Of a stretch of DNA of 36,082 nucleotides, positions 19,759-35,063 are shown piece by piece. The notes under the pieces were generated by a model. The model had not been told where the DNA came from. It saw nothing but the letters and a program-made list of their open reading frames with translations, and did not search any database. Both the position numbers and the translations under genes were made by a program. The stretch is from positions 1-36,082 of IMG/VR virus record IMGVR_UViG_3300032061_000004. One strand, 5' to 3'. This stretch comes from a virus. How positions within the stretch are numbered: position 1 is the first letter of the stretch; each line of letters begins with the position of its first letter.

Positions 19759-20265
19759 ATGATAGACAAAAATCAATTACAAAATTTAATCGAATCTACG
19801 CTGAAAGAAGTTGACGAAAGAATATTAAAATACAACCCTTCATATAAAGGACTTAAATTTTATTCTCCAGAAGCTGTACAATTGTTAATGGGAACAGCGG
19901 CACAGGAAAGCAGATTAGGCACTTATATATTACAAATAGGTTCTGGAATAGCTAAAGGTATATTTCAAATGGAAGACGCAACTCACAACGATATTTTTGT
20001 TAATTATCTTAATTACAGGGAAAACATAATGATTGCGATTTGTAATATATCTGATGTAAGCCACGTAAAACCAGATAGGTTAATATTCAATCTGAAATAC
20101 GCAATATTGCTTGCCAGAATCAAATATATGAGAGTTCCTGAAAAGCTACCGGCACTAAATGATTTAACAGCACAAGCTAAGTATTGGAAAAAATGGTACA
20201 ATACTCCTTTAGGCGCGGGAACTGAAAATGAATTTATTGCTAATTATCATAAATATTTAGATTAG
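19759..20265 (+). CDS. Lysozyme-like endolysin / lytic transglycosylase
   Basis: 168 residues. The core motif MGTAAQESRLGTYILQIGSG places a likely catalytic Glu at residue 50, followed by AKGIFQMEDATHND, the pattern of lysozyme-like transglycosylases in phages. The remaining helical part ends with WKKWYNTPLGAGTENEF. It has no signal peptide, so a holin is expected to release it, which fits the preceding membrane genes. It ends 46 bases before the terminator that closes the + strand block. Confidence 0.78.
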   Translation: MIDKNQLQNLIESTLKEVDERILKYNPSYKGLKFYSPEAVQLLMGTAAQESRLGTYILQIGSGIAKGIFQMEDATHNDIFVNYLNYRENIMIAICNISDVSHVKPDRLIFNLKYAILLARIKYMRVPEKLPALNDLTAQAKYWKKWYNTPLGAGTENEFIANYHKYLD

Positions 20266-23107: not shown

Positions 23108-23126
23108 ATCTTCTCCAATTTGTTAT

Positions 23127-23178
23127 AAAAACCGGGACAGGGTGTATTGAGTGCTAATCAATGTTTGTTTTGTCCCGG
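23127..23178 (-). terminator. Terminator-like hairpin upstream of the MazG gene
   Basis: CCGGGACA (23178-23171) pairs with TGTCCCGG (23139-23132), with an inner ATTGA/TCAAT stem in the long loop and five Ts following. It is 20 bases before the MazG start with its ribosome site in between, so it could act as an attenuator. The 66 bases from 23,179 to 23,244 hold no ORF of note. Confidence 0.65.
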
Positions 23179-23244
23179 CTTAGGGTTTCAATCTCTTCTA
23201 CTCGTTTAGTCTCCTATATTGTTATTAAAATTATTTGTTATTTT

Positions 23245-23430
23245 CTAACTCGTTTTATATTTTTGATAAATATCCTGAAGAGTATTAAACTGTTTTTGAG
23301 AAAGTTCTTTGCCAGCATTTATTTGTCCGCGAAGATTTATCATGAACTCCTTTTCCCAATCGGTTAGTTTTGCCTGATTCTTCTCTATGCATCTATAAGC
23401 ATCATCGATTATTTTCCATCTGATATTCAT
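23245..23430 (-). CDS. Small conserved-looking helical phage protein
   Basis: 61 residues; AAGGAG precedes ATG. The pattern KLTDWEKEFMINLRGQINAG then LSQKQFNTLQDIYQKY (Trp-Glu, Gly, Leu-Ser-x-Lys-Gln) is one I recall in small phage proteins near replication and recombination genes, with no known function. The leader holds a stable stem-loop five bases from the ribosome site. Confidence 0.65.
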   Translation of the reverse strand: MNIRWKIIDDAYRCIEKNQAKLTDWEKEFMINLRGQINAGKELSQKQFNTLQDIYQKYKTS

Positions 23431-23448
23431 TTTAATTCTCCTTATTAT

Positions 23449-23509
23449 ACCGGCTTTAGGCTGTATTAGTTCATGGAGTGGGGGCGAACTCCACCAGCCC
23501 GCAGCCGGT
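23449..23509 (-). promoter_or_regulatory. Long nested stem-loop next to a ribosome site
   Basis: ACCGGCT (23509-23503) pairs with AGCCGGT (23455-23449), with inner pairing TGGAGT/ACTCCA. The structure fills nearly the whole 85-base gap and ends about five bases before the AAGGAG of the downstream gene. With no U tract, it may control translation or protect the transcript. Confidence 0.5.
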
Positions 23510-23515
23510 GATTAA

Positions 23516-23926
23516 TTACATAAAGTTTAATAAATTATTTTCTATATCTTCTTTTGTTGCCTGTGTGTCTAAGATTATAAAATCAAGAACTTTGCTATAA
23601 ACTTCTTCAAATTTCTCTTGCGACATATTAGCGAATGAGATTGAATCGGCTTCAATAAAACTACCCTTACTTGTAGCATAGACTGTATAAAATCCGCTTT
23701 TAATCAGTGCATATTTACGATATACTTCTAGCGGAGCATCAATACTTTTACTATTTTCACATCCTAACTTTAACAAAGCAAAGAATTTTTTTAAGAATAA
23801 GTAATTACGCTCCTTCTTTATGCTGCAAGAATATACCCCCCCTATTTTAAGGTGTTTTTTCTCATTAAAATCTGATGGATATAATGGTATGAGCCCATCA
23901 TTAGTATTCTTACAGTAAATAATCAT
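23516..23926 (-). CDS. DUF1367 family phage protein
   Basis: 136 residues. The family layout is seen: an N-terminal LIPLYPSDFNEKKHLKIGGV strand-turn, then IKKERNYLFLKKFFALLKLG, then PLEVYRKYALIKSGFYTVYA, and ADSISFANMSQEKFEEVYSK near the end. Members are common in phage recombination regions, often with NinB or RusA genes; their function is not established. It overlaps the upstream HNH gene by four bases. Confidence 0.8.
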   Translation of the reverse strand: MIIYCKNTNDGLIPLYPSDFNEKKHLKIGGVYSCSIKKERNYLFLKKFFALLKLGCENSKSIDAPLEVYRKYALIKSGFYTVYATSKGSFIEADSISFANMSQEKFEEVYSKVLDFIILDTQATKEDIENNLLNFM

Positions 23927-24426
23927 TTAATCGCCTCTAAGTAAGATAAATGAGCTTCTTCTGCGGTTTTGAATGTTCCTAAATGCGTTCGTTTTTCTCC
24001 ATCCCAATATTGCGCCCTAAATTTATCCTTTGATGGATAGACTCCAGTAGGCAAATTGTGTTTTCTCCCATTTTGGATAAAGCCCTTAGAAACATTTTTC
24101 CTATGTCTTAAAATTTGTAGATTGTTAATGTTATCGTTTGTCTTATTGCCGTCAATGTGGTCTATTACGAAACCTCTTTCGGGTAGTCTATTATTAAAAT
24201 AAAGCCAAACCAAATGACTACGCTTAATTGTCCATAATTTATGATTTTTGTAGAGACTATATCTATAATATCCTTGGTTTAAAACAGGCTTTAAAATTCT
24301 TTCAGTAAACTTAAATTCATTTTGAGTGTCTCTCGGGAGACTTTTTACCTGTCCCAATCCATTATATTGATAAATTCCTTCATAATTTGGGATTGGTTGC
24401 CATGTATTTCTGCAAAGTATTTTCAT
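23923..24426 (-). CDS. HNH homing endonuclease with NUMOD4 and AP2-like domains
   Basis: 167 residues. NUMOD4 at 8-32 (TWQPIPNYEGIYQYNGLGQV), HNH at about 70-112 with His 71, VIDHIDGNKTNDNINNLQIL, and an AP2-like DNA-binding domain at 126-165 (TGVYPSKDKFRAQYWDGEKR). Such genes are selfish elements that cut DNA at sites lacking them and spread by repair. It is not inside an intron here, so it is free-standing. The ATGA link with DUF1367 shows it has settled into the operon, and a stem-loop precedes it. Confidence 0.9.
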   Translation of the reverse strand: MKILCRNTWQPIPNYEGIYQYNGLGQVKSLPRDTQNEFKFTERILKPVLNQGYYRYSLYKNHKLWTIKRSHLVWLYFNNRLPERGFVIDHIDGNKTNDNINNLQILRHRKNVSKGFIQNGRKHNLPTGVYPSKDKFRAQYWDGEKRTHLGTFKTAEEAHLSYLEAIK

Positions 24427-24472
24427 AACTCTATTAATACCTGTTTAATCAAACGCTTTAATTAATAACGGA

Positions 24473-24509
24473 TGCTTAATCGAGAACCAAAAAACGGTCT
24501 CGATAAGCA
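24473..24509 (-). promoter_or_regulatory. Stem-loop between a zinc protein gene and the HNH gene
   Basis: TGCTTATCGAG (24509-24499) pairs with CTCGATTAAGCA (24484-24473) with one bulged T, extended by ACC/GGT around a T-rich loop. It begins five bases after a stop codon. The 5' arm repeats elsewhere (33,659-33,673). Confidence 0.55.
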
Positions 24510-24513
24510 GGTG

Positions 24514-24741
24514 TTATGTGAAACTTTGGCTATCATATCCACAATTCATACATATTTTACAAATAACGTGTATTGTTTTTCTTCCGCACTTAGGGCATAC
24601 TCCAGCTTCTTCACCCGCCTGTTCTTCTGGCGTACAATTTCTTTCTTTGATTAAATCACTATAATGCTCTGCCTGGCTTTTCATTGGGTTTGTATGCACT
24701 CTCATGTAAGCATCACCCCAACATTTCTCACAACTTGGCAT
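24514..24741 (-). CDS. Small zinc-binding phage protein
   Basis: 75 residues. It starts MPSCEKCWGDAYMR, a form familiar in phage proteins, and has further Cys pairs CPKCG near 49-53 and CKICMNCG near 62-69, enough for two zinc sites. The middle has SDLIKERNCTPEEQAGEEAG. Such proteins occur widely in early regions; no function is established. GGAAGGATGG precedes ATG. Confidence 0.75.
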   Translation of the reverse strand: MPSCEKCWGDAYMRVHTNPMKSQAEHYSDLIKERNCTPEEQAGEEAGVCPKCGRKTIHVICKICMNCGYDSQSFT

Positions 24742-24849
24742 ATTACCATCCTTCCGCCAAAGTCCACATAACTACTGACTCAACAAAGACGGCATATCTG
24801 GTTCGGCTTATTTTAGTTTATAATACATTTATTAAATTATACACCTATT
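24742..24849. other. 108-base gap without a gene
   Basis: AT-rich intergenic sequence with no ORF, strong hairpin or recognisable promoter. Confidence 0.5.
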
Positions 24850-25134
24850 CTAAAATGGCAAATCATCTTCATCTTGTGTACCTTCAATTTCCGGCTTACT
24901 ACTCGGTTGGCTATCCGGTTTCTGATGATCATTCAAATAAGCCGTATGAGTGTCTCCATATTTACCCGGCTTATGCATTCTCGTTATTTTAAGTTTAACT
25001 TTGCCGTCTTTATCTCTATTTTCTTGCAAGAATTCAATAAACTTATCTACGTTAATAGTTGATAAAAAGAAAGCTCCATATTGACCAATTATTTCCTTGT
25101 AATAAATCCCTTTTGTGTATGTTTTGTCTGCCAT
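24850..25134 (-). CDS. SSB-like protein with an acidic DDLPF tail
   Basis: 94 residues from ATG 25,134, chosen because AGGGG precedes it and it avoids overlap with the ERF gene; a longer form from 25,167 would overlap. The body (KGIYYKEIIGQYGAFFLSTI; VKLKITRMHKPGKYGDTHTA) resembles a small OB-like fold seen in phage ssDNA-binding proteins. A disordered linker with Ser and Pro leads to EDDLPF, like the SSB tip DDDIPF that recruits replication and repair proteins. It follows the ERF gene directly, so it likely coats single strands during annealing. Confidence 0.75.
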   Translation of the reverse strand: MADKTYTKGIYYKEIIGQYGAFFLSTINVDKFIEFLQENRDKDGKVKLKITRMHKPGKYGDTHTAYLNDHQKPDSQPSSKPEIEGTQDEDDLPF

Positions 25135-25135
25135 G

Positions 25136-25906
25136 TTATCCCCTATTCTTGTTTTTTTCAGCTTCAATATTACCCTTAATATCCGAGAATGTTTTTTTAT
25201 GTGTTTCTCTTTCTGATTGATTCATCTTATTCCATAATGATGTTAATGCTTTGGTAGTTTCACAAGACTTAATTAACTTTTCCCAATTGACATCGTTTAT
25301 AACTGCCGGTTTTTTCTCTTGCGGAGCCGGTATAGATTCTTTCTTACCGCTTGTTGATGATTCACCGTCGTTATCGTCTTCAGCGGTACTTAGTCCTAAT
25401 ACACCAATTAGAGTATAACGTTGTAAATAAGTCCGTGTGCTGCCAATTGATTGAATGTCGTTTTTACTTCCACTTGTGTCTTTACCTGCCTGCATTGTTG
25501 AAGATTCACTATGTCCATCAATATGGCTTAATATACAGGTACATTTTATTACTCCATTTTCTTCAAACTCCCAACGATATGATAAGCCATTTTTTTTAAG
25601 AATTGGTTTTATGATTTTTATAATGTAAGGAAGCGGAGCATAATTGTATCTAACATTACCACCCCTGCTTGATGGGAAATCTACTTTTTTTGGTTTTTTA
25701 ATTTCCGGCAGTTCATTCTGGAAATTAGTCATTGCAGAAAGAAAAGACTTTTTAGCTTGCGATTTTTCCCACCGTTCCTGCAAATTCATAAGTCTCTCCA
25801 GCGTATCTATTCCCGCACCCTGAGCAAGAGCTTGTGATATTAAACTATGTGGAGAGTTCCCGACTAGTTCTTGTGTATTTTCTTTTGTTGTTATTTCTTC
25901 GTTCAT
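25136..25906 (-). CDS. erf: ERF family single-strand annealing protein
   Basis: 256 residues. The ERF core is clear: LQERWEKSQAKKSFLSAMTN, then FQNELPEIKKPKKVDFPSS, then YNYAPLPYIIKIIKPILKKN, then GLSYRWEFEENG, and DIQSIGSTRTYLQRYTLIGV with the following LGLSTAEDDND. ERF proteins anneal complementary single strands and promote circularisation of phage DNA, as in P22. The C-terminal part is a charged linker and a small helical domain. Neighbours are an SSB-like protein and a nuclease two genes upstream, a complete annealing set. Confidence 0.92.
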   Translation of the reverse strand: MNEEITTKENTQELVGNSPHSLISQALAQGAGIDTLERLMNLQERWEKSQAKKSFLSAMTNFQNELPEIKKPKKVDFPSSRGGNVRYNYAPLPYIIKIIKPILKKNGLSYRWEFEENGVIKCTCILSHIDGHSESSTMQAGKDTSGSKNDIQSIGSTRTYLQRYTLIGVLGLSTAEDDNDGESSTSGKKESIPAPQEKKPAVINDVNWEKLIKSCETTKALTSLWNKMNQSERETHKKTFSDIKGNIEAEKNKNRG

Positions 25907-25907
25907 G

Positions 25908-26597
25908 TTAACTCCTGCTTACTGGTATTTTTTCAGAATGTAATTTTACACCCGGAATAGAGATAGTGCCTTTTGTAGCTTGAGCTATTTTATTTAATGC
26001 CGATTGATTCGGTAGTTTATATTCGTCTGGTAACTTCGCAAAGTCAATGACTTCCGCCGTCCACTGTTCTCTGAAAGACATTCCTTTAGGTGTTTCAATT
26101 GCAGGAGCTACTACTGGAACGTTTACCGGTTCAATGTTCTCTTTTTGTTCTTCAAGTGCTTCTGCTTTTTCGTCTTTACCGGAAGCCTTTGCACGTTCAA
26201 TACGAGCTTCTAATTTTTTACGTTCCTTTTCAGCTTCTAAATCCGCAAGTCTTTGTAATTCTGCCTGTTTTTCTCTTGCGATTCTTTCTTGCTCATTAAC
26301 ATAGCCTACCATTAAAGATTTTACCTTACTCTCAGCCGTTGACAATAAACCTAATGGAGTCCTGAACAATTCCTGTATTTTCTTTTTTGCATCGTCAAGC
26401 GGTTTTACAATATCCTTCCGCTGTGATTCAAGTTCTTTGTAACGTGTTTTAACATCTTTTAGAAAGTCCGTTGCGCTTGTATATTCCGCTTGGTTTGAGA
26501 TAACTAAAGATTTGCTTCTTTCAGATAAAGCAACAACATCTTTGCTATCTGATTCAACTTGTTCAACGTCAATTGGTTGTACTGATATTTGTGTCAT
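25908..26597 (-). CDS. Coiled-coil protein associated with the recombination set
   Basis: 229 residues, one base before the ERF gene. Residues about 30-160 are long helices with coiled-coil character (DFLKDVKTRYKELESQRKDI; EKERKKLEARIERAKASGKD). The C-terminal domain has FREQWTAEVIDFAKLPDEYK and ends PGVKLHSEKIPVSRS, a pattern I recall from phage proteins encoded beside ERF or RecT genes. The role is not established; it could hold the nuclease and annealase together or bind DNA. GGGG precedes ATG. Confidence 0.7.
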   Translation of the reverse strand: MTQISVQPIDVEQVESDSKDVVALSERSKSLVISNQAEYTSATDFLKDVKTRYKELESQRKDIVKPLDDAKKKIQELFRTPLGLLSTAESKVKSLMVGYVNEQERIAREKQAELQRLADLEAEKERKKLEARIERAKASGKDEKAEALEEQKENIEPVNVPVVAPAIETPKGMSFREQWTAEVIDFAKLPDEYKLPNQSALNKIAQATKGTISIPGVKLHSEKIPVSRS

Positions 26598-27178
26598 ATT
26601 AACCCCTTTTTATAATTATAGATTGTTAGTGCTGCTAAAAATATTTTATCGTCATAAAGACCGTTGTTCGGCTCTACTTTATACCCTGTTTCGGAAAGAT
26701 AAACTATTAATCTTTTCTTTATCATTTCCTTTTTAGGCCTTCCTAAATCATAGAGCAATTTATAAGCTGCTGTTTGAATCTCATGTACTTTCTGTTTTGT
26801 ACCGCTTTTAATATCAACTAATGTTTTTACTGATTGAGCAATCCCAACTCTGTCAAGTGTTCCCGCAAAGCTATATTTTGGATGATAGTATATTTGCTCA
26901 ATTTCTTTAATTTGGAAATCATAATCTTTCTTGAACTTAATCCAACCATTGAGATAATTTCTTAATACAGGGTGCAAATCGTCAATGTCAAGTATATTTT
27001 GATCATATAATTCAGTAGCTTTATGAACCTTAGTCCCCAAATCTCCCTTTTCTTCCAATAGTTCCTTTGACACCCATTCAAGGTCAACAAGTTTAGAATA
27101 TTCCATTATTTGAGTAACCGAAGGAATAACTTTGCCATCAAATTTATATTCGTGTTTCTCAGCATCAAAAGTTAACAT
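26594..27178 (-). CDS. PD-(D/E)XK exonuclease, RecB/Cas4-like
   Basis: 194 residues. Motifs in order: IPSVTQIMEYSK at 18-29, GTKVHKATEL with His 52, KYSFAGTLDRVGI with Asp 109, LVDIKSGTKQKVHEIQTAAY with Asp 122, Lys 124 and Gln 135. These are the active-site pattern of the RecB-type nuclease family, lacking the four Cys of the Cas4 Fe-S type. It likely resects DNA ends so that ERF can anneal. ATGA overlap with the coiled-coil gene. Confidence 0.88.
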   Translation of the reverse strand: MLTFDAEKHEYKFDGKVIPSVTQIMEYSKLVDLEWVSKELLEEKGDLGTKVHKATELYDQNILDIDDLHPVLRNYLNGWIKFKKDYDFQIKEIEQIYYHPKYSFAGTLDRVGIAQSVKTLVDIKSGTKQKVHEIQTAAYKLLYDLGRPKKEMIKKRLIVYLSETGYKVEPNNGLYDDKIFLAALTIYNYKKGLI

Positions 27179-27193
27179 CTTACCCCTTTTTAT

Positions 27194-27523
27194 TTATTGT
27201 ACTTCTTTAATGTGAACTGGAATGCTATCATCTTTAAAAATATTATCTATTTTCTTTTGGCAATCTTCTTTTGTAGGGCTGATAAAAACTGTTTTTATCC
27301 AAGGTGAATCAGTACCTTTCACTTTTAACGCAACCCATCCATCCAATGGCTGCCGGACTTCTTCAATCCACTCATCAAAGTTAAATTCAGGATCGTCAAT
27401 CTTACCTAAATATGAACCGCTTAAATAAATATTGCTGGTTGCTCTGTCTATGACTATTGGATATCCCTTTTTAAAAAAAGGGCAAAATGGATAATCTTTC
27501 TTCAATACATATTTCTTTTCCAT
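27194..27523 (-). CDS. Unknown early protein
   Basis: 109 residues, one-base overlap with the next upstream gene. Mixed alpha/beta protein with short strands (VIDRATSNIYLSGSYLGKID), a WVALKVKGTDSPWIKTVF segment and a C-terminal helix (KEDCQKKIDNIFKDD). No family recognised. It lies between nuclease and orphan genes and is transcribed with them. Confidence 0.58.
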   Translation of the reverse strand: MEKKYVLKKDYPFCPFFKKGYPIVIDRATSNIYLSGSYLGKIDDPEFNFDEWIEEVRQPLDGWVALKVKGTDSPWIKTVFISPTKEDCQKKIDNIFKDDSIPVHIKEVQ

Positions 27524-27741
27524 TACTTTATCTCCTTAATTTCTATTTCTACTCGCAATGGTTTTTTATCAGTCCATTTAACGTTTTTAAATGGAGAGTG
27601 TGGTAAATATATGTTATCGCTATTTGACCACCAACAACAGTATATCATATCTTTGTATGGTTTATTCAGATAGAAATGAATATAGTCATTTTTATCTCTT
27701 GCCACCCATCCTTTTAGTTTTATTGCTTTTGTATCAGCCAT
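27523..27741 (-). CDS. Small phage protein with GWVARDK motif
   Basis: 72 residues. Begins MADTKAIKLKGWVARDKND, then YIHFYLNKPYKD and CWWSNSDNIYLP, the pattern of a small beta-rich phage protein I recall in early regions (short strands around GWVARD, ending with a PLRVEIEIKE strand). No function is known. Confidence 0.65.
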   Translation of the reverse strand: MADTKAIKLKGWVARDKNDYIHFYLNKPYKDMIYCCWWSNSDNIYLPHSPFKNVKWTDKKPLRVEIEIKEIK

Positions 27742-27751
27742 TAGAATCCTC

Positions 27752-28057
27752 TTATTTACTATATTTATAAAAGTTATTTTTATTCAGAATTATGATTATT
27801 CTAAGCATTGGTAAAATGTGAATAGTAAAAGCAGATGCTATCTTGTTCCAATTAAATCCGACTACAAAATTAGTTGGCTTAAATACAAAATAAATTCTCG
27901 GCAAAGAACAAACAGGGCAATATGAACCAACCTTAGACTTGTTAGCGATTTCAGAATGTCCACATTTGTCGCACTTAATAATTATAGTGCCATCATGATA
28001 ATCACTTTCATACCCCATTATTTCTAATCTTGAACCAAGGAATTTATATATATTCAT
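27752..28057 (-). CDS. Zinc-ribbon protein with a hydrophobic C-terminus
   Basis: 101 residues, ATGA overlap with the regulator upstream. The zinc ribbon is C-DKC near 29-32 and C-PVC near 48-51 (IIIKCDKCGHSE; GSYCPVCS). The last 40 residues contain hydrophobic stretches (IASAFTIHILPMLRIIIILN) that could form a membrane segment. No family recognised. Confidence 0.6.
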   Translation of the reverse strand: MNIYKFLGSRLEIMGYESDYHDGTIIIKCDKCGHSEIANKSKVGSYCPVCSLPRIYFVFKPTNFVVGFNWNKIASAFTIHILPMLRIIIILNKNNFYKYSK

Positions 28058-28230
28058 TTACATCTCCTTTTGGGTTTGTCTTTTGAATAATCATCAATAA
28101 GTTCGATTATTTTTTCGCCTTTCGTTATTCTCTTACCTGTCTGACCTTTCTCAAGGTTAAGTTTATTGGTGAAACTATTCCATATTGATTCAGGTATTTT
28201 TTCTAAAAGGTATGTTATCATTTTTGGCAT
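28054..28230 (-). CDS. Small ribbon-helix-helix-like regulator
   Basis: 58 residues from the ATG at 28,230 with AGGA upstream; the longer ORF start falls before the promoter-proximal site and is not needed. MPKMITYLLEKIPESIWNSF, then RITKGEKIIELIDDYSK, fits a strand followed by two helices as in Arc/CopG repressors. Its own promoter lies just upstream with an inverted repeat TAAGT-TT-ACTTA between the two elements, suggesting autoregulation. The fold call is moderate. Confidence 0.6.
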   Translation of the reverse strand: MPKMITYLLEKIPESIWNSFTNKLNLEKGQTGKRITKGEKIIELIDDYSKDKPKRRCK

Positions 28231-28254
28231 GCTGTATTCCTTATTTGTTCTAAA

Positions 28255-28285
28255 CAAAGCTAAGTAAACTTAAGATAAAAGTCAA
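28255..28285 (-). promoter_or_regulatory. Bacteroidota-type promoter TTG-N20-TAnnTTTG with inverted repeat
   Basis: On the - strand TTGAC (28285-28281) is followed after TTG by 20 bases and then TAGCTTTG (28262-28255). TAAGTTTACTTA (28272-28261), an inverted repeat with a two-base centre, lies between the elements and touches the -7 element. It drives the small regulator 25 bases downstream. Confidence 0.75.
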
Positions 28286-28295
28286 GACAAATATA

Positions 28296-28601
28296 TTATT
28301 TCTCAAATAAACTTTTATTTTTCTTCGCTTCGTATCTACGTTTCATATCTCGTAGTAATTTAAGGCTACGTTTCAACTTTATTTCTTGTTCATCAAATTC
28401 TTTCGGGTCTTTGGCCATGATGTATCCTTTGTCCGTTCCCTTGATAAGATTACCTTCTTCTTTCAGCTGCCGGACATAGCGTCTAACCATGCGGGTATTT
28501 ATTTCTAAGGGAACTGAAATATCATATTGTAAAACTGGTTGGTATCTCTGAATAATCCAGAGTACTTTTTCTTTTACTGTTTTGTCAAGTTCAATTTTCA
28601 T
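28296..28601 (-). CDS. Winged-helix DNA-binding protein
   Basis: 101 residues. Helix-turn-helix pattern DISVPLEINTRMVRRYVRQL, then KEEGNLIKGTDKGYIMA as the wing, and a basic C-terminal helix (LKRSLKLLRDMKRRYEAKKN). The family resembles small phage wHTH proteins with regulatory or replication roles. It lies at the end of the operon before the second promoter and overlaps the upstream gene by 11 bases. Confidence 0.72.
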   Translation of the reverse strand: MKIELDKTVKEKVLWIIQRYQPVLQYDISVPLEINTRMVRRYVRQLKEEGNLIKGTDKGYIMAKDPKEFDEQEIKLKRSLKLLRDMKRRYEAKKNKSLFEK

Positions 28602-29004
28602 TATTAACCCCGCTTAAATAAAATATTATCCCTTCACAATAAGGCAAGCCATCTTCGTTAATAGTAAATTTTGTATGAGTAATATCAGTTTCGTAAATCC
28701 ACGAATATCCAGTATCATTCCAAATTGCTTCAATCTTTTTGGCTGATTCTAATTCTTTTTTGAAATATGGGCAATCTTCATCATCACATTCGTTTTGCAG
28801 CAATCCTTTGTCTGTTAAATATGCAGTACCCCCATTATAACATCCTATCTCATCGTTTATAGCCCCAGCGAATTCCATTAAATCATCAGAATAACCATAA
28901 ACAATTACTAAATTATTATCTTTCGCAATTTTTTCTATTTCTGGGGTAATCTCGTTCCCGCGTTCTCGCCCATTTAACTGATTCGCTAGTTCTTCTCTAG
29001 TCAT
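28591..29004 (-). CDS. Conserved-looking phage protein with ELANQLNGRE motif
   Basis: 137 residues. It begins MTREELANQLNGRERGNEIT, continues LVIVYGYSDDLMEFAGAIND, then a YNGGTAYLTDKGLL segment and a pair of Cys (ECDDEDCPYFKKELESAKKI). This pattern is one I recognise in many tailed phages, with no known function. It ends just inside the wHTH gene. A helper role in phage DNA metabolism is possible but not supported. Confidence 0.75.
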   Translation of the reverse strand: MTREELANQLNGRERGNEITPEIEKIAKDNNLVIVYGYSDDLMEFAGAINDEIGCYNGGTAYLTDKGLLQNECDDEDCPYFKKELESAKKIEAIWNDTGYSWIYETDITHTKFTINEDGLPYCEGIIFYLSGVNNEN

Positions 29005-29045
29005 TTTTTATTTCCCTAATATATGTTTATTAATATATGTAGTTT

Positions 29046-29306
29046 TCATTTTACACCCGTTCCGTTGCAATTAGTGCAAGGCACATCTTCAGGCGGGTTT
29101 ACTTGACGGCTTGATCTTACAGTACCGGCAACTACTTTTTCACCCCCGCAGCAAGGGCAAATAAGATTTTCTAATTCTTTTAATTCGGCTTCAAGGTCTT
29201 TTATCACTATTATACGATAAAATTCTGGTAATTTTGAATTTGAATCATAATAATTTATCAACATTTTTTTTATATTTATGCTTTCTCTGATCTTCTCGAT
29301 TGTCAT
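29046..29306 (-). CDS. DnaJ-type zinc-finger protein
   Basis: 86 residues. The C-terminal 40 residues hold CPCCGGEKVVAGTVRSSRQV and CTNCNGTG, two Cys pairs as in half of a DnaJ zinc domain. The N-terminal part is helical (ESINIKKMLINYYDS; IKDLEAELKELENLI). It overlaps the next upstream gene by four bases. Function unknown; zinc proteins of this shape are common in phage early regions. Confidence 0.65.
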   Translation of the reverse strand: MTIEKIRESINIKKMLINYYDSNSKLPEFYRIIVIKDLEAELKELENLICPCCGGEKVVAGTVRSSRQVNPPEDVPCTNCNGTGVK

Positions 29307-29524
29307 TTTATCCCCTTTTTTATATATATTTTATATATAGGTGCTTCACCATTACTATAATTATTTGCACTTTCAATATCTTTAAATACTGGTATAGCCC
29401 CTATCATCCCATCACACCATTTAAGAGCCAAATTATGTGGAATACCTAAGAAATCTATATCGATATCTTCTTTTACTACTCCTACTACATATTGTTCAAC
29501 TAAAGATACTTTATCATCTTTCAT
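29303..29524 (-). CDS. Unknown small protein
   Basis: 73 residues. Compact, acidic N-terminus (DKVSLVEQYVVGVVKEDIDI), a KWCDGMIGAIPVFKDIESAN segment and a C-terminal strand (IYKIYIKKGIK). It is linked by an ATGA overlap to the zinc-finger gene. No family recognised. Confidence 0.58.
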   Translation of the reverse strand: MKDDKVSLVEQYVVGVVKEDIDIDFLGIPHNLALKWCDGMIGAIPVFKDIESANNYSNGEAPIYKIYIKKGIK

Positions 29525-29570
29525 ACTTATCCCCTTTTTATTATTGGCTCACAATATGGTTGAATATATA

Positions 29571-30095
29571 TTAGGCGTGTTTGTTACCTATCTCACAGCC
29601 TAAGCAAAGTTGTTTATCACTATACCCTATATCATCAAATTCAAGTTGTGTATATTCGGTATTATAAGGGTATGGGTAGATTAAATTTTTAAGTTGTTCA
29701 TCTGTCAACCTTGTTCTAACTCTCATTTCTATTATAAAATCATCATCTAAATCAGCAATAATCTTTTTTAATTTACCCACATTTAATGGCTTTCCCCCAG
29801 CCGGATCACTTTCAAACGTTGCATTTTCAAAAATCTCTTTAATATCATTTAGTCTAACTACTTTTTCTTTGTTACTAATTTCTTCAGCTAATTCCAAGCA
29901 AAGTCTCTTATACTTTTCATCGGCAATTCTCCAGCCATTTGTATAACCTAATTTTTTCTCAATCATATTTGCTATTTCTGCAATTTCCGGCATAAAATGA
30001 TTCTCTAATTCACAGTAGGGACAATTTGTAATTGCATCCGTTATCATATTATGTTTTTCGCATTTCATTTTATTTATAACTCCAATGTTGTCCAT
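29571..30095 (-). CDS. Protein with an N-terminal Cys/His pair region, unknown function
   Basis: 174 residues. Near the N-terminus MKCEKHN and NCPYCELENHF give a C-x2-H plus C-x2-C zinc-like set. A helical middle (IANMIEKKLGYTNGWRIADE; LCLELAEEISNKEKVVRLND) and an acidic C-terminal domain (LDDDFIIEMRVRTRLTDEQL) follow. GGTG precedes the ATG at 30,095; a second ATG ten codons in has GGAG 11 bases before it and is an alternative start. It lies directly downstream of the tRNA-like element, so RNase P-type processing could free its mRNA. Confidence 0.58.
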   Translation of the reverse strand: MDNIGVINKMKCEKHNMITDAITNCPYCELENHFMPEIAEIANMIEKKLGYTNGWRIADEKYKRLCLELAEEISNKEKVVRLNDIKEIFENATFESDPAGGKPLNVGKLKKIIADLDDDFIIEMRVRTRLTDEQLKNLIYPYPYNTEYTQLEFDDIGYSDKQLCLGCEIGNKHA

Positions 30096-30115
30096 TTCAC
30101 ACCTATTTTTTATTT

Positions 30116-30228
30116 GGGAGCTAGCAGGATTCGAACCTGCATGTTTGTAGCTGAGCTCCGTGGGTTGTCATTCCTGACACTACAAACTTAAACCCCAGTT
30201 AGCGTCTAACCATTCCGCCATAGCTCCC
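30116..30228 (-). tRNA. tRNA-like element, Leu-like D arm, degenerate anticodon arm
   Basis: 113 bases. An 8-bp acceptor stem GGGAGCTA/TAGCTCCC encloses a Leu/Ser-like D arm (TGGCGGAATGGTTAGACGC) and a perfect T arm (GCAGG-TTCGAAT-CCTGC). The segment where the anticodon arm should be (TAACTGGGGTTTAAG) has the 5' half of a Leu-type arm with a possible TAA anticodon, but no matching 3' half follows. Instead an 8-bp stem GTTTGTAG/CTACAAAC encloses a TGTCA-GGAA-TGACA hairpin. At 113 bases it is long for a tRNA. It may be a tRNA with an insertion, a decayed tRNA, or a tRNA mimic used for RNA processing. No CCA is encoded. Confidence 0.6.
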
Positions 30229-30238
30229 ATGAATTAAT
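30220..30238. repeat. 19-bp direct repeat, left copy (tRNA 5' end)
   Basis: ATAGCTCCCATGAATTAAT, identical to 30624-30642. This copy covers the first nine bases of the tRNA-like element and the stop codon of the adjacent gene. Confidence 0.9.
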
Positions 30239-30620
30239 CTATTTGCTCAAAATTATCTTCAAAATATTTTCGAGCAACATACCATTGATCTTTATGATTC
30301 TTGGGATTTCTTGCAACCATCCCCATATCATTATTTGGATCATCTTCCTTACTTACAGATATGATTGATAAGTCTTCACCCTTTATATATGGGCGCATTT
30401 CGGCAATATTGGTACGACGGTATTTCTTGAACTCTGACATACATTCTCCTGTTTTTATTATATTAGTTATTTTGATGATTTCGCTATCAATGGGTACTCC
30501 ATTTTTAGCGCAACAATCTTCACACCACATTATAGCTGGCATTTCTCCTTTTGGGTTCATTCTGTGTAGAGTTACATTATCTTTAAAAATATCTTTACTG
30601 CAATTATTGCATTTAGTCAT
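30234..30620 (-). CDS. Fused zinc-ribbon and MSEFKKYRR-type phage protein
   Basis: 128 residues. Residues 1-60 are a zinc ribbon (CNNCSKDIF; LHRMNPKGEMPAIMWCEDCC). Residues 61-128 (MSEFKKYRRTNIAEMRPYIK, then MGMVARNPKNHKDQWYVARK) look like a small phage protein that I recall as a stand-alone gene. The junction retains AGGAG followed by ATG at 30,440, so the second part may also be made alone (68 residues). This looks like loss of a stop codon between two adjacent genes. The gene is enclosed by 19-bp direct repeats, and its ribosome site GGGAG is inside the right copy. Confidence 0.72.
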   Translation of the reverse strand: MTKCNNCSKDIFKDNVTLHRMNPKGEMPAIMWCEDCCAKNGVPIDSEIIKITNIIKTGECMSEFKKYRRTNIAEMRPYIKGEDLSIISVSKEDDPNNDMGMVARNPKNHKDQWYVARKYFEDNFEQID

Positions 30621-30623
30621 TTA

Positions 30624-30642
30624 ATAGCTCCCATGAATTAAT
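30624..30642. repeat. 19-bp direct repeat, right copy (ribosome site)
   Basis: Identical to 30220-30238. On the - strand it holds GGGAG seven bases before ATG 30,620 and the end of the small TM gene, including its stop codon. Confidence 0.9.
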
Positions 30643-30790
30643 TATCTTCTTTGTCCATTATTTCCAAATCAGGCTTGCCTTCATGATATCTGGCTTCATC
30701 TTCATAGCCTTCTGGGGCTGTCCAAAATGATATCAACGACACCAATAAAACTATGTTCACTATTGCAATTATTATTGTTTCTAAGCTCAT
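30638..30790 (-). CDS. Small one-TM protein
   Basis: 50 residues, starting in an ATGA overlap with the upstream zinc gene. N-terminal TM (TIIIAIVNIVLLVSLISFW) followed by an acidic tail (EGYEDEARYHEGKPDLEIMD). It is too short for most gene callers. Its stop codon lies in the 19-bp repeat. Function unknown; an N-terminally anchored protein with an acidic tail could act at the host inner membrane. Confidence 0.6.
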   Translation of the reverse strand: MSLETIIIAIVNIVLLVSLISFWTAPEGYEDEARYHEGKPDLEIMDKEDN

Positions 30791-31008
30791 TCCAATTCCC
30801 ACTTTGGTTTATTTTTCTCTTCCTTTTCGTAATCAGGGCAGTCTTTGTATGGCTCATAAAATGACGAAATAAGTAGTGAAAATTGATATTCTATTGAAGC
30901 TTCTGGGTTGCCAAACCAATGTCGTTTACCGCATTGTGCTTCTTCCTGTATGTCTGGATATTGCCCATAAGGGAATAATCTATTATGTTCGCAATCATCA
31001 CACTTCAT
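30787..31008 (-). CDS. Small Cys-rich zinc protein
   Basis: 73 residues from ATG 31,008 (GGGGTG eight bases upstream); a GTG at 31,017 is a less likely start. CDDCEHNRLFPYGQYPDIQE, AQCGKRHWFG and KDCPDYEKEE give four Cys and a His for one zinc site. The chain is acidic at the end. The start overlaps the preceding TM gene by 11 bases in another frame. Confidence 0.6.
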   Translation of the reverse strand: MKCDDCEHNRLFPYGQYPDIQEEAQCGKRHWFGNPEASIEYQFSLLISSFYEPYKDCPDYEKEEKNKPKWELE

Positions 31009-31159
31009 TATCTTCACCCCAAAAATCGTTTTTAATCTCTCTTGCCTTGTCTCTACAAAACCACCCTATAACACACAAAGCCGAGAAAAGCACCAATACT
31101 ATTTGCGCTAAATCTGAATGGCTTATAAAATATAATATGTCTGTTATCCAGTTAGGCAT
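30998..31159 (-). CDS. Small one-TM protein after the RHH regulator
   Basis: 53 residues, starting in a TAATG overlap with the regulator. Polar N-terminus (MPNWITDILYFISHSDLA), TM segment (QIVLVLFSALCVIGWFC) and charged tail (RDKAREIKNDFWGEDNEV). It is the second gene transcribed from the promoter at 31,332. Function unknown. Confidence 0.6.
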   Translation of the reverse strand: MPNWITDILYFISHSDLAQIVLVLFSALCVIGWFCRDKAREIKNDFWGEDNEV

Positions 31160-31299
31160 TATTTTAACCCCTTATCATGCTTAATACCGGTTTCAATCAT
31201 ACGATTAGCAACTACAGATTCTTTCCGTTTTTCTTTTTTTGCCATCTTTGAAATTATCTTTTTTAGTTTTGAGTCTATTCTTATAACTGCTGTTGACAT
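31159..31299 (-). CDS. Arc/CopG-type ribbon-helix-helix regulator
   Basis: 46 residues; GGATT before ATG is a weak ribosome site. It begins with the strand STAVIRIDSKL, then two helices, KKIISKMAKKEKRKE and VVANRMIETGIKHDKG, the layout of RHH repressors. Directly upstream is a Bacteroidota-type promoter whose -7 element lies inside a palindrome GTTAC-CTTT-GTAAC, a likely operator for this protein. It is the first gene of its operon and probably autoregulates the small membrane and zinc genes that follow. Confidence 0.72.
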   Translation of the reverse strand: MSTAVIRIDSKLKKIISKMAKKEKRKESVVANRMIETGIKHDKGLK

Positions 31300-31327
31300 T
31301 GGCTAATCCTTATATTATGTTATTCTT

Positions 31328-31362
31328 GTTACAAAGGTAACTGATAGGATAACGAATGTCAA
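31328..31362 (-). promoter_or_regulatory. Bacteroidota-type promoter with overlapping palindromic operator
   Basis: On the - strand TTGAC (31362-31358) is followed after TTG by exactly 20 bases, then TACCTTTG (31339-31332). The palindrome GTTAC-CTTT-GTAAC (31341-31328) covers the -7 element. The -33 element overlaps the stop codon of the upstream DUF3268 gene. Spacing is identical to the promoter at 28,255-28,285. Confidence 0.8.
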
Positions 31363-31748
31363 GTAAATAATAAATTATTTTTCAATAAGTATAATAATTC
31401 TTCGCATTGCTCTTTTGTAAACTCTCCAATATGTGGCTCAGGTATATTCATTTCTTTGCCAAGAATACGATATGCTTTGTTTCTGCTTATCTTTCCAAAC
31501 TTCCAAATATCATCAAATTCTAAATGGCAAGTATGGCGCAAAGTACGAAGCTCTTTATTTGCCGGTACGCCCAAAGGAATATTTGTGCCTTTATGACAAC
31601 CAACATAACTATCACATTCTGGATAATTTTTACATATCCAAATATTACCGTAACTTTTACGATAGACCGCAGAGCTATCCTTTAATTCTGTTTCTGCTCC
31701 GCAATAAGGGCAAACTGGTATTCCAAAGTCATAATTTAATTTGCTCAA
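31359..31748 (-). CDS. DUF3268 zinc-finger protein
   Basis: 129 residues. CPYCGAETELKDSSAVYRKS, then IWICKNYPECDSYVGCHKGT, then NIPLGVPANKELRTLRHTCH, match the family of phage proteins with a topoisomerase-like zinc ribbon. The C-terminal part (FDDIWKFGKISRNKAYRILG; HIGEFTKEQCEELLYLL) is helical. Function is not known; a DNA-binding or nuclease-partner role has been supposed for such proteins. The end overlaps the promoter of the next gene. Confidence 0.8.
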   Translation of the reverse strand: MSKLNYDFGIPVCPYCGAETELKDSSAVYRKSYGNIWICKNYPECDSYVGCHKGTNIPLGVPANKELRTLRHTCHLEFDDIWKFGKISRNKAYRILGKEMNIPEPHIGEFTKEQCEELLYLLKNNLLFT

Positions 31749-31784
31749 AGTCTTTCCCCATTTATGAATTATTTTCCACTTGAT

Positions 31785-32000
31785 TTATTTACTTCCCCTT
31801 GCTACTGGTACTAATGGCATTATTTCGTAATATTTACGACTTTCTTTTTTTATTAAAAGTTCAAGATATATTTTAGCATCTTTCTTCCGTTCAAATGCTA
31901 TATTGCACGGGATTTCTTTATCATCAATTTGCATTGTTAAATTTCTCAAAAGATTACCCCAATAAAAATTACCTTTATGTTTTATTATATATAATCTCAT
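31785..32000 (-). CDS. Unknown small basic protein
   Basis: 71 residues. Strand-rich start (MRLYIIKHKGNFYWGNLL), a middle helix (AFERKKDAKIYLELLIKKES) and a PLVPVARGSK tail. It lies four bases downstream of the radical SAM gene and is probably cotranscribed. No family recognised. Confidence 0.58.
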   Translation of the reverse strand: MRLYIIKHKGNFYWGNLLRNLTMQIDDKEIPCNIAFERKKDAKIYLELLIKKESRKYYEIMPLVPVARGSK

Positions 32001-32004
32001 TCCC

Positions 32005-32808
32005 TTAATTCTCCTTAAACTGATTTATATATTTTTCATTTTTATAACCATCAGGAAGATAAATTTGAAGGTCTTTTTTAATATAATGTTTAACACCAAG
32101 TTTATTAACAAGTTCAAGCATCCTATGAGTATAGGACTTCCAGTCTGTATCTTTAGTCATAAGAAGATAATTAGCCCTGCCAATTTTATAGAGATCAACA
32201 AATTCGTGAGTATGCTGAACTATTTCAAGACTGCTTTCAATATTCAAAGTAGGTTCAAGACTAACCCATGTAAATATTCCGGCTTCATGAAACTTTTTAA
32301 GAGTATCAATCCTGTCTTTAGGAAGTGCTGCGCCCCTTTCCCACTTCAGGCTAAAAGAATCGTCAAGACTTGTAAGTGTACTGGCGAAAGCATCCCTATC
32401 AGATCTAAACAAATCAATGTCTCTCAAAGCTCTTTGACCGCCTTTGGTAAGGGTACAAATTCCAAGTCCGTAATCTTGTAAAGTAATCAAGACTTTACGA
32501 GTAAGGGAATTATCGAAAGGATGGTAAGGGTCTGTCGTGAAAGAAAGCATAACTTGTTCTCTGATTCCATGTTGCTGATATTTTTTAGCATCCCTAATAA
32601 GCAAGTCAAGATAATTCTGTCTTTCTATAGCTCCATTGTCAAAATCAGACCGTGTAATTCTAAGAACCGCCGGTACATAGCAATAAGCGCACTTGTGACC
32701 GCATCCCCTATAAGGATTTGCAGCAAGTTTTGAATATTCACCCGCCTGCCCTTGCGGTGGATAAATTATTTTACATCCTTTTACACTAAATCCGTTTGCA
32801 TCTATCAT
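32005..32808 (-). CDS. SplB-like radical SAM protein
   Basis: 267 residues from ATG 32,808, chosen for AAGGAG seven bases before it; a longer form has no ribosome site. The radical SAM motif is C36-G-H-K-C40-A-Y-C43 (NPYRGCGHKCAYCYVPAVL), binding a 4Fe-4S cluster. The rest of the TIM-barrel shows VMLSFTTDPYHPFD, GICTLTKGGQRAL and FTWVSLEPTLNIESS, features of the COG1533/SplB group that includes spore photoproduct lyase. Its substrate is unknown; DNA repair or base modification is possible. It stands among orphan genes, probably as an accessory gene. Confidence 0.85.
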   Translation of the reverse strand: MIDANGFSVKGCKIIYPPQGQAGEYSKLAANPYRGCGHKCAYCYVPAVLRITRSDFDNGAIERQNYLDLLIRDAKKYQQHGIREQVMLSFTTDPYHPFDNSLTRKVLITLQDYGLGICTLTKGGQRALRDIDLFRSDRDAFASTLTSLDDSFSLKWERGAALPKDRIDTLKKFHEAGIFTWVSLEPTLNIESSLEIVQHTHEFVDLYKIGRANYLLMTKDTDWKSYTHRMLELVNKLGVKHYIKKDLQIYLPDGYKNEKYINQFKEN

Positions 32809-32908
32809 TCTTACTCTCCTTTTTAAGCTTGCCAAATATATTACCCTCAACTACCTTTTTGCCTACTTTTTAGCTCCTGCGTTATGCCTGTGCGAAATTC
32901 GGCTATCC
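32809..32908. other. 100-base gap with a possible weak promoter
   Basis: On the - strand TATATTTG lies before the radical SAM gene and resembles the -7 element, but no TTG is present 20 bases upstream. No ORF or strong hairpin is seen. Confidence 0.3.
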
Positions 32909-33358
32909 CTATGTTGCAATGAGTTCTGGATTCTGCCATTTATTGCCGATAACCGTAATCTCATAATCTTCATTATATTGCGTTTCATCAAAACTAAAAT
33001 AATATTCTTCATATTCCATTTCTGGATTCATTATCACACGGTATGGCACTATAAAGGCCATTAAATATCTAGCTTCACTTTGATTATATTCTACTATCGC
33101 ACGCGTTTCGCAATCTAGTTCAGTAATCCCAAGTTCAGCAAGCCAGCTTATTTTTATTATATCCCCTTCAAAAATCTTCACTCCTTGGCTATCGGTAATC
33201 CCGGTGTAAAATGATTTAACGTAATTATCCATTAAATATAGTTCTGGTCTGTTTATATCAACCAAATTACCATTGCACGAAAGAAATAGATTTTCAACTG
33301 ATATATCATATATTAACCGATTGCCTTTTTTATCAAAAACTCTAAATTCTAATTTCAT
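32909..33358 (-). CDS. YopX family protein
   Basis: 149 residues from ATG 33,358 (just after the upstream stop; the longer ORF form would overlap). YopX pattern: EFRVFDKKGNRLIYDIS, YTGITDSQGVKIFEGDIIKI, RAIVEYNQSEARYLMAFI, EITVIGNKWQNPEL. Members are widespread in phages and mobile elements, form small beta-rich oligomers, and have no firm function. It lies among other orphan early genes. Confidence 0.82.
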   Translation of the reverse strand: MKLEFRVFDKKGNRLIYDISVENLFLSCNGNLVDINRPELYLMDNYVKSFYTGITDSQGVKIFEGDIIKISWLAELGITELDCETRAIVEYNQSEARYLMAFIVPYRVIMNPEMEYEEYYFSFDETQYNEDYEITVIGNKWQNPELIAT

Positions 33359-33359
33359 T

Positions 33360-33617
33360 TTAATCATCCCAATTATCTTTTGTGAAAACACTATCTATAT
33401 CAATATCATAATGATTGCATATTGGTTCCATTTTGATAACCAAATAACCATCTTTAAAAATACATTCAATCCCATCATCGTCGAAGAGCGTGGGATCACA
33501 AATATCGTGAAAATCTTTTAATTCGTTCAGATTTGGCATAATATACATATCGTCTTCGATTTTATGCCATTCAACATTATTTTCAGTTATAAATTTGTAT
33601 AATTCTAATTCTGTCAT
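33360..33617 (-). CDS. Conserved-looking small acidic phage protein
   Basis: 85 residues; GGGAGTGAGTA precedes ATG. MTELELYKFITENNVEWHKI, then NELKDFHDICDPTLFDDDGI, then YLVIKMEPICNHYDIDIDSV, is a pattern I recognise from small phage proteins of unknown function found in early regions. It is very acidic, which could suggest DNA mimicry, but no evidence supports that beyond charge. One base separates it from YopX. Confidence 0.72.
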   Translation of the reverse strand: MTELELYKFITENNVEWHKIEDDMYIMPNLNELKDFHDICDPTLFDDDGIECIFKDGYLVIKMEPICNHYDIDIDSVFTKDNWDD

Positions 33618-33658
33618 TACTCACTCCCTTTTTATAATTATGCAAATATTTTATTCTG

Positions 33659-33694
33659 CTCGATAAGCCGGTGCTATTCCGAAAAATTGCTATC
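33659..33694 (-). repeat. Gene-end sequence shared with two other gaps
   Basis: CACCGGCTTATCGAG (33673-33659) directly follows a TAG stop; CACCTGCTTATCGAG (24513-24499) directly follows a TAA stop. In addition 33674-33694 matches 34069-34089 at 18 of 21 bases. Confidence 0.65.
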
Positions 33695-34006
33695 AGTTTC
33701 CCACCGCTGTAATTCTTCGTTATATATCATCATTTTATTTAATGATGTATCAAAATATCTACCGCTAATTTTCGGTATAATCAGCGACTCAATAGGAACA
33801 AAATTTACACTGTATGTCCCATCTTCATTTTCGGGCACTACTATTTTATATGTTTGTTCCAAGATTAATACCGATTCAATCTCTGGATGTATGCCTTCTG
33901 GTTCCTGAACAAAACAATCAAGAATCCATTCTTTTGCTTCATCTAAAGAATCAAATTTTATTATTTCACCATCCACTTGGTCTAACACTATTATTTTCTT
34001 TTTCAT
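33674..34006 (-). CDS. Unknown acidic protein
   Basis: 110 residues; AAGGAG precedes ATG. N-terminal strand and helix (KKKIIVLDQVDGEIIKFD; LDEAKEWILDCFVQEPEG), a central TYKIVVPENEDGTYSVNFVP and a C-terminal YNEELQRWETDSNFSE. The 3' end of the coding sequence is shared with the sequence after the next upstream gene. No family recognised. Confidence 0.58.
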   Translation of the reverse strand: MKKKIIVLDQVDGEIIKFDSLDEAKEWILDCFVQEPEGIHPEIESVLILEQTYKIVVPENEDGTYSVNFVPIESLIIPKISGRYFDTSLNKMMIYNEELQRWETDSNFSE

Positions 34007-34034
34007 GCTAATCTCCTTGATTATTTATAAAATC

Positions 34035-34053
34035 TCATTGATTAATGTCTATT
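34035..34053. repeat. 19-bp direct repeat, left copy
   Basis: TCATTGATTAATGTCTATT, identical to 34376-34394. It lies 28 bases upstream of the 33,674-34,006 gene start and downstream of the 34,085-34,360 gene. Confidence 0.88.
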
Positions 34054-34084
34054 GCTAAGGCTGTCTTTCTATCCCGGAAAATTG

Positions 34085-34360
34085 CTATTTAATTTTGAAT
34101 ACTCGCATATAACCATCATTATAATATACTCTAACTTCATCAATTGGTATTCCTTCGTTAACCCTAACATGTCGTTTTATAAATTCTTGGTAAAAATCAT
34201 TATTAACCTCGATACCTTTTATTCCTTCCGCAATTTTCGTCAGATTCCTAATTTCTGGAATATCATTTAAAATTCCATCGGCTATTATATTAGAATCTAA
34301 AAATTGATATTCATCTACTGTTTTACTAATAGTGTCTATTAATTTTTCTCTTATCCCCAT
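34085..34360 (-). CDS. Unknown protein enclosed by 19-bp direct repeats
   Basis: 91 residues; GGAG precedes ATG. Helical N-terminal part (REKLIDTISKTVDEYQFLDS), a middle with EIRNLTKIAEGIKGIEVNND and a C-terminal strand (VRVYYNDGYMRVFKIK). The gene is enclosed by exact 19-bp repeats, and the sequence after its stop resembles the end of the next gene downstream. No family recognised. Confidence 0.58.
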   Translation of the reverse strand: MGIREKLIDTISKTVDEYQFLDSNIIADGILNDIPEIRNLTKIAEGIKGIEVNNDFYQEFIKRHVRVNEGIPIDEVRVYYNDGYMRVFKIK

Positions 34361-34375
34361 TTATCACTCCATTTT

Positions 34376-34394
34376 TCATTGATTAATGTCTATT
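34376..34394. repeat. 19-bp direct repeat, right copy
   Basis: Identical to 34035-34053. It lies 15 bases upstream of the 34,085-34,360 gene. Confidence 0.88.
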
Positions 34395-34558: not shown

Positions 34559-34842
34559 TCTTTGTTAGTTAGTGCGAACCTGCATTCATTACCCATTGCA
34601 TTATGTATATATTCCCAAGATGGACAGTTATTCCCTTTAATTTTATAAACCGTTTTACCGCGCTTCTTAACCTTGAAATCTAAATTATCCTGATTAAGCG
34701 GAATCATATATATTTTATTGCCCGATTTTGGATGTACCCCGAAGTACGCATCTTTTATCACACCTTTTTTTATGTACCTGATGATAAGGCAAGGTATTGT
34801 ATCTTTAAGATCTGCAAATTCTTTTACTGTTAAATGTTCCAT
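34552..34842 (-). CDS. Unknown protein
   Basis: 96 residues, starting in a TAATG overlap with the LexA-like gene. N-terminal helix (EHLTVKEFADLKDT), a strand-rich middle (LIIRYIKKGVIKDAYFGVHP; NKIYMIPLNQDNLDFKVKKR) and a Cys-containing end (NCPSWEYIHNAMGNECRFAL). Coupled to a DNA-binding protein, so it may share its control. No family recognised. Confidence 0.58.
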   Translation of the reverse strand: MEHLTVKEFADLKDTIPCLIIRYIKKGVIKDAYFGVHPKSGNKIYMIPLNQDNLDFKVKKRGKTVYKIKGNNCPSWEYIHNAMGNECRFALTNKDC

Positions 34843-35063
34843 TAGCCCACCTTGTAAATAAAAATTAAACTTCTTGATTTATTTTTCTCTTTTCTCAAAT
34901 AGCCTTTTTTAACTAATGCCGTAATATGCCGACTAACTCCGAATGTGCTTTTTATTCCAAATTCTTTCCCTATTTCCCGAAACGTAGGCGGATATTGATT
35001 ATAACAGGAAAAATCACGTATGAAATTTAATATTTCTCGCTGCCGGTCTGTTAAGTCTTTCAT
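34842..35063 (-). CDS. LexA-type winged-helix DNA-binding protein without protease domain
   Basis: 73 residues. [52 protein letters not shown] match the N-terminal DNA-binding domain of LexA in order and length. The autocleavage domain of LexA is absent, so it cannot be inactivated by RecA-driven self-cleavage. It may repress early genes or bind SOS-type sites of the host. No cognate operator was identified. Confidence 0.8.

Follow-up and report, generated by a model that had tools for sequence, protein, structure and literature searches.

Exact short direct repeats around single genes in the early region of an SPP1-like phage: possible scars of insertion or duplication

The ways in which small accessory genes come to be part of phage genomes are understood only in part, since most of the junctions concerned carry no homology. 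The early region of the virus considered here raises this question in a particular form. Short sequences recur at several of its gene ends, and one may ask whether they make up one family of shared boundary (linker) words, letting single genes be exchanged by homologous recombination, as was proposed in a preliminary description of this DNA, or whether they are separate traces of separate events. The window (that is, the whole stretch of DNA analysed) is the complete virus record IMGVR_UViG_3300032061_000004, of 36,082 bases with a G+C content of 34%. It belongs to an SPP1-like siphophage, with late genes on the plus strand from 219 to 20265 (the first encoding an SPP1-type minor head protein) and about 40 early genes on the minus strand from 36003 down to 20318. 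As the portal and terminase genes are missing at its left end, the window is probably a fragment of a larger phage genome; the only phage relative found, L164 (IMGVR_UViG_3300046703_000056, 8.6 kb), extends leftward beyond the homologous head gene. Genes were picked by hand from the list of open reading frames, and certain start codons are uncertain.

The two 19-bp repeats noted in the preliminary description are indeed present, as exact copies at 34035/34376 and at 30220/30624. The first belongs to locus 1 (33659-34394), which is made up as follows:

34376..34394, minus strand: repeat A copy 1, AATAGACATTAATCAATGA, an exact 19-bp repeat upstream of gene 34085-34360
34085..34360, minus strand: 91-aa gene bracketed by repeat A; weak match to phrog_26877 (unknown function)
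34069..34089, minus strand: repeat B copy 1, lying across the stop codon of gene 34085-34360; 18/21 identical to copy 2
34035..34053, minus strand: repeat A copy 2, exact, upstream of gene 33674-34006
33674..34006, minus strand: 110-aa gene, unrelated to its neighbour, with identical 5' border (A) and similar 3' border (B)
33674..33694, minus strand: repeat B copy 2, formed by the final codons of gene 33674-34006; 18/21 identical to copy 1
33659..33673, minus strand: CACCGGCTTATCGAG, immediately 3' of the stop of gene 33674-34006; no hairpin partner

Read in the minus sense the order is thus A, gene 34085-34360, B, 15 bases, A, gene 33674-34006, B and CACCGGCTTATCGAG. A scan of the window allowing up to three mismatches finds repeat A at these two sites only, 15 and 28 bases ahead of the start codons, and both copies contain CATT-N4-AATG. 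The match of 33674-33694 to 34069-34089 at 18 of 21 bases, reported earlier, was reproduced, with P about 1e-4 for a match of this level at two adjacent gene ends (calculated for that gene pair); the reading frames of the coding copy and the stop-straddling copy differ, so that the similarity exists at the level of DNA and does not reflect a common protein tail. Comparison of the two proteins gives a result at noise level, and alignment of the DNA between the borders of the two genes is no better than for shuffled sequence; a tandem duplication in which both genes are still related was rejected on the strength of these two comparisons. What recurs is the pair of borders, A and B, although the genes between them are unrelated, and this suggests that a slot was duplicated and that the gene in one of its copies was afterwards replaced; two inserts stacked one upon the other would likewise give recurring borders. 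It is a good deal less probable that 33674-34394 would be a true exchange slot, with conserved borders (A on the 5' side, B on the 3' side) between which unrelated genes replace one another singly and come to stand in tandem; the early genes of the lineage would then be cassette-like and moved by its own Erf system.

The second exact repeat, C, lies in locus 2 (30115-30642):

30624..30642, minus strand: repeat C copy 1, ATTAATTCATGGGAGCTAT, containing the stop of ORF 30638-30802 and the motif GGGAG
30234..30620, minus strand: ORF of 128 aa with repeat C on both sides; may be two genes
30220..30238, minus strand: repeat C copy 2, in which ORF 30234-30620 has its stop and the tRNA-like gene its 5' end
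30115..30228, minus strand: tRNA-like gene with a long insertion; Rfam RF00005, 36.3 bits; ARAGORN intron mode

In the minus sense ORF 30638-30802 ends in C and ORF 30234-30620 begins three bases past it, the GGGAG of copy 1 being a potential ribosome-binding site for the latter. Repeat C, too, occurs at two sites only when up to three mismatches are allowed across the window. Because deletion of the segment between the two copies would place the tRNA directly after the upstream ORF 30638-30802, this locus would fit an insertion or duplication beside the tRNA. As to the components themselves, ORF 30234-30620 has an in-frame internal ATG near 30440 with AGGAGA ahead of it (the second gene would be of 68 aa), while the tRNA-like gene has some 50 additional bases lying between its D and T arms, among them TGTCA-GGAA-TGACA and GTTTGTAG/CTACAAAC; its anticodon arm is unclear, and ARAGORN matches it in intron mode only, as Leu-GAG with a 35-base insert.

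How far such bracketing departs from what a genome of this kind would show anyway was assessed gene by gene, by comparing the 60 bases upstream of each start with the bases around the corresponding stop (68 genes). An exact 19-bp direct repeat brackets just two of the 68, namely 34085-34360 (by A) and 30234-30620 (by C); for the remainder the match is of at most 9 bp, with a median of 7. A and C are unrelated words and form separate pairs. The mean number of exact 19-mer repeats in shuffled sequence is 0.00 for the early region and 0.04 for the whole window, as against two observed in the early region, and these two clearly exceed chance, although it should be remembered that the statistics were devised once the repeats had been seen. 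In 1.84 Mb of other viral loci four genes (three of them distinct) are bracketed by 16 bp or more, compared with two in this 36-kb window; that set was not selected for a survey of bracketing and differs from the window in composition, but two bracketed genes within 36 kb is nonetheless unusual.

The reading that we favour, with some reservation, is that each repeat pair in the early operon is a scar of its own, left when short-homology recombination inserted or duplicated a single gene. Insertion of a gene through crossing-over in a short identical stretch would leave an exact direct repeat on both sides of it, while tandem duplication of a small segment would be an alternative route to a bracketing repeat; at these loci the two cannot be told apart. 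In the reverse reaction the two A copies, or the two C copies, would recombine with each other, so that the bracketed gene is lost and one repeat remains. Several genes relevant to such events are encoded in the early region:

26594..27178, minus strand: PD-(D/E)XK exonuclease, likely partner of Erf; phrog_298, E 1.7e-22; PF12705 just above cut-off
25136..25906, minus strand: Erf-like single-strand annealing protein; phrog_155, E 2.9e-43
23923..24426, minus strand: HNH endonuclease with NUMOD4 motif, likely a homing endonuclease; PF13392, PF07463; PF00847 (AP2) below cut-off
23516..23926, minus strand: NinB/Orf recombination mediator (DUF1367); phrog_319, E 1.8e-25; PF07105

Since the phage encodes Erf, the exonuclease and NinB/Orf, and also a RusA-like resolvase, short-homology recombination by its own enzymes would be the likely route, with the Erf annealing protein a plausible agent. 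The obvious comparison is with the relaxed homologous recombination carried out by Rad52-like proteins, which include the Erf of phage D3. That protein recombines diverged sequences efficiently, and repeats that were 100% and 78% identical recombined well above the frequency of the RecA pathway (PMC3945230). The present phage resembles this system in encoding an Erf-like protein together with an exonuclease; it differs in that a recombination activity of its Erf is presumed, and in that its repeats are of 19 bp, the published assay having used far longer repeats of 800 bp (PMC3945230). The repeats, with their positions and significance, and the identities of the genes are established by the analysis; recombination as the origin of the repeats, its direction (gain rather than duplication) and the enzyme responsible we infer.

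The closest parallel for the repeats themselves comes from the mycobacteriophage LRRHood, where a 1.35-kb segment (genes 43-46) is flanked by 29-bp direct repeats at gene ends that are single-copy in relatives, and where gain or loss of the segment by recombination within the repeat has been proposed as the cause (PMC3029335). Common to both cases is a small accessory segment with one and the same short direct repeat, free of mismatches, at the gene ends to either side of it, and in the window such a repeat, beyond chance, is found around two of the 68 genes. The window differs in that its repeats are of 19 bp and enclose single genes or ORFs, and in that the relatives of LRRHood display the single-copy empty site, no such relative being known here.

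Some comparison is possible with L164, even though its overlap with the window is confined to head genes (55-67% amino acid identity). Between two of these it carries a minus-strand insert of three genes, which the window lacks at 1414-1470. One of the three encodes a YopX protein, another is an ORF of 74 aa, and the last, a short ORF, was read from the sequence. This insert is bracketed by a 12-bp direct repeat, TCTTAATTTAAT, at 4553 and 5415 (P = 0.002 against shuffled flanks), a different word from the repeats of the window; a single recognisable copy of it was not seen in the window, and loss on the side of the window, as opposed to gain by L164, may account for the difference. The window has a YopX gene of its own, in the early region at 32909-33391, that of L164 falling within the insert (4543-5415).

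Insertion or duplication by short-homology recombination is thus supported by the bracketing of two genes in 68, the exactness of the 19-mers, the B match, the unrelated neighbours of locus 1, the insert in L164 and the rarity of such bracketing elsewhere. Against it, no relative without the bracketed genes was found among the collections searched, so that the empty site is unseen; B is imperfect, and coding in one copy; and A could be a shared regulatory sequence. No new mechanism is established by these observations, which add a new example to a known kind of scar; but two single genes with exact short bracketing repeats beside an Erf module do make a useful case for direct tests of insertion and deletion through short homology.

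Of the other explanations, the one that survives best, though still unlikely, is that the repeats are boundary words in the lambdoid sense, conserved at junctions across related phages, by way of which single genes are exchanged by homologous recombination. All the repeats lie at gene junctions, recombination genes are present in the same genome, and the two unrelated adjacent genes of locus 1 have in common a 5' border (A, 19/19) and a similar 3' border (B, 18/21). However, the pairs are different words with two sites each, and the signal for a family anchored at stop codons is weak. That signal comes from a 15-base word, CTCGATAAGCMGGTG, one copy of which is listed here together with two hairpins and a third word:

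24499..24513, minus strand: CACCTGCTTATCGAG, immediately 3' of the gene 24514-24741 stop codon; most of it forms a hairpin's 5' arm
24427..24513, minus strand: intergenic hairpin upstream of the HNH gene; z -3.2
23431..23515, minus strand: intergenic hairpin 3' of the NinB/Orf gene, including a third word, CACCGGCT; z -3.6

The two copies of the 15-mer, at 24499-24513 and 33659-33673, are 14/15 identical and lie on the minus (coding) strand, each following a stop codon, as the preliminary description had it, with no base in between (the genes being 24514-24741 and 33674-34006, respectively); a scan of the window adds one match with three mismatches, on the opposite strand at 2455. A third word was said to follow the stop at 23,516, and CACCGGCT is certainly there, as 8 nt at 23503-23510, but it begins five bases past the stop and does not follow it directly; it lies within a hairpin, and as an 8-mer is at chance level.

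Searches in other viruses give the linker reading little help. The 15-mer pattern matched at least 80 loci in viral_contigs; among the 80 matches listed, 68 lie within long ORFs and the mean G+C is 57%, which is what chance would lead one to expect, and on these figures the 15-mer was rejected as a phage-wide linker. Two near-identical contigs among the matches listed (L071 and L073, G+C 58%) encode a distant relative of the window protein 19759-20265, with the 15-mer in another context. The exact word A does not occur in viral_contigs, and word B is found there at three loci, always in the same antisense context inside one homologous coding gene; with A absent and B confined to this one unrelated coding context, both were set aside as linkers in other phages so far as this collection goes. 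Protein searches with the minor head, Erf, radical SAM and capsid proteins and with the products of 33674-34006 and 19759-20265 brought up only L164, through its head genes, and, for the radical SAM protein alone, 79 viral loci, with no relative covering the early region; phage records gave no DNA match to the window, near relatives being possibly missing from the collections searched.

Lambdoid boundary or linker sequences, as summarised in PMC3029335 (refs 21 and 22 therein), are short junction sequences with a proposed role in single-gene exchange. The likeness lies in the presence of short sequences at gene junctions; the difference is that in lambdoid phages a given junction carries one word that recurs from phage to phage, whereas the repeats of the window lie within one genome. 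No sharing of the window's words across phages was found in viral_contigs, where close relatives may be missing, and within the window no one word marks several junctions, each 19-mer being confined to its own two sites. The earlier picture of a family of related sequences acting as shared linkers is accordingly not supported: each pair has a different word, none was found in a meaningful context in the other viruses searched, the 15-mer is near chance except for its position at stop codons, and two of the three CACC words are in hairpins. Its underlying idea, that junction repeats were left by recombination moving single genes, fares better, in that it fits the two genes bracketed by 19 bp and the insert in L164, even if a common family of linker words is unsupported. 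A weaker form of the linker idea is also kept alive by locus 1, because two unrelated genes there have both borders in common.

Somewhat less likely again is that these are shared regulatory sequences, A being a promoter, operator or leader used twice and the CACC words being parts of hairpins that end or process transcripts. In its favour, a start codon follows each copy of A, the motif CATT-N4-AATG occurs in both, the nearby gene 34842-35063 codes for a LexA-type DNA-binding protein, and the words at 24513 and 23510 fall within hairpins with z of -3.2 and -3.6; but A is found only twice, even with up to three mismatches allowed, and at different distances (15 and 28 bases) from the start codons, C spans a gene end and a tRNA start, unlike an operator, and a hairpin was looked for at the 33659-33673 copy and none found. 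The word at 33673 could be the remnant of one. The pair of 15-mers is probably not part of the gene-bracketing scars, and would then be due either to chance or to a hairpin arm shared after gene ends. Another system with which the repeats might be compared is that of the stoperators of cluster A mycobacteriophages, 13-bp sites present in about 23-36 copies per genome (PMC3029335); these, too, recur in a single orientation, both where genes end and between genes, but in the window there are two copies per word, as opposed to some 20 or more copies of one asymmetric, mostly intergenic site. With regard to the hairpins, those at 23431-23515 and 24427-24513 (minus strand) flank the pair of genes for the HNH endonuclease and NinB/Orf, and at 23121-23185 (minus strand) GCCGGGACA...TGTCCCGG followed by TTTTTA makes up a long terminator-like hairpin after gene 23245-23430.

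Chance, in a sequence as AT-rich as this, is very unlikely to account for the repeats as a whole, but it does serve for the 15-mer and the 21-mer as words, for the 8-mer, and for the matches to the 15-mer in other viruses. The early region has 54 pairs of 15-mers with at most one mismatch, as against 24-34 in shuffles, and 12 pairs of 21-mers with at most three mismatches, as against 2-11; as words both are barely above chance, and neither stands out alone. When pairs are scored from the stop codon, that of genes 24514 and 33674 reaches 14, while the maximum in shuffles has a mean of 12.7 (s.d. 1.15, largest 16); with random anchors in the early region, kept apart from one another, a score of 14 is reached in 0.6% of trials with no offset and in 2% with an offset of up to 2. 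The position at stop codons thus makes the 15-mer pair modestly surprising (P about 0.006-0.02), which is suggestive; the pair was picked after the fact. Positional as well as compositional controls are clearly needed before word sharing at gene ends within one genome is labelled a linker family. For A and C chance is already unlikely, there being two exact 19-mers, each bracketing one gene, against an expectation in shuffles of 0.00.

Least probable, if only by a little, is insertion of a mobile element with duplication of its target site, or homing by the HNH endonuclease: there are genes bracketed by exact direct repeats, and an HNH/NUMOD4 gene at 23923-24426, but that gene adjoins neither repeat, the two supposed target words differ and at 19 bp are long for a target duplication, and the bracketed genes have neither a transposase domain or family match nor the terminal inverted repeats of a transposon or IS element (the longest inverted word in the terminal 50 nt being of 6-7 bases).

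Three further observations may be added. The radical SAM gene at 32005-32850 (minus strand), whose closest annotated phage match is a "PA0069 family radical SAM protein", has relatives in 79 viral loci (L085-L163), mostly 59-77% identical; as these loci share almost no other genes with the window, and no other early genes, the gene moves on its own among viruses that are otherwise unrelated. A 32-bp direct repeat (TCCCTCCTAACGGAGGG..., terminator-like) at 10530 and 10942 brackets a single gene in L059, an unrelated viral contig. Lastly, the window contains a third exact 19-bp repeat, at 6653-6671 and 6974-6992 within gene 5828-7174, the source of which is a repeated coding motif of the type GNVGIGT.
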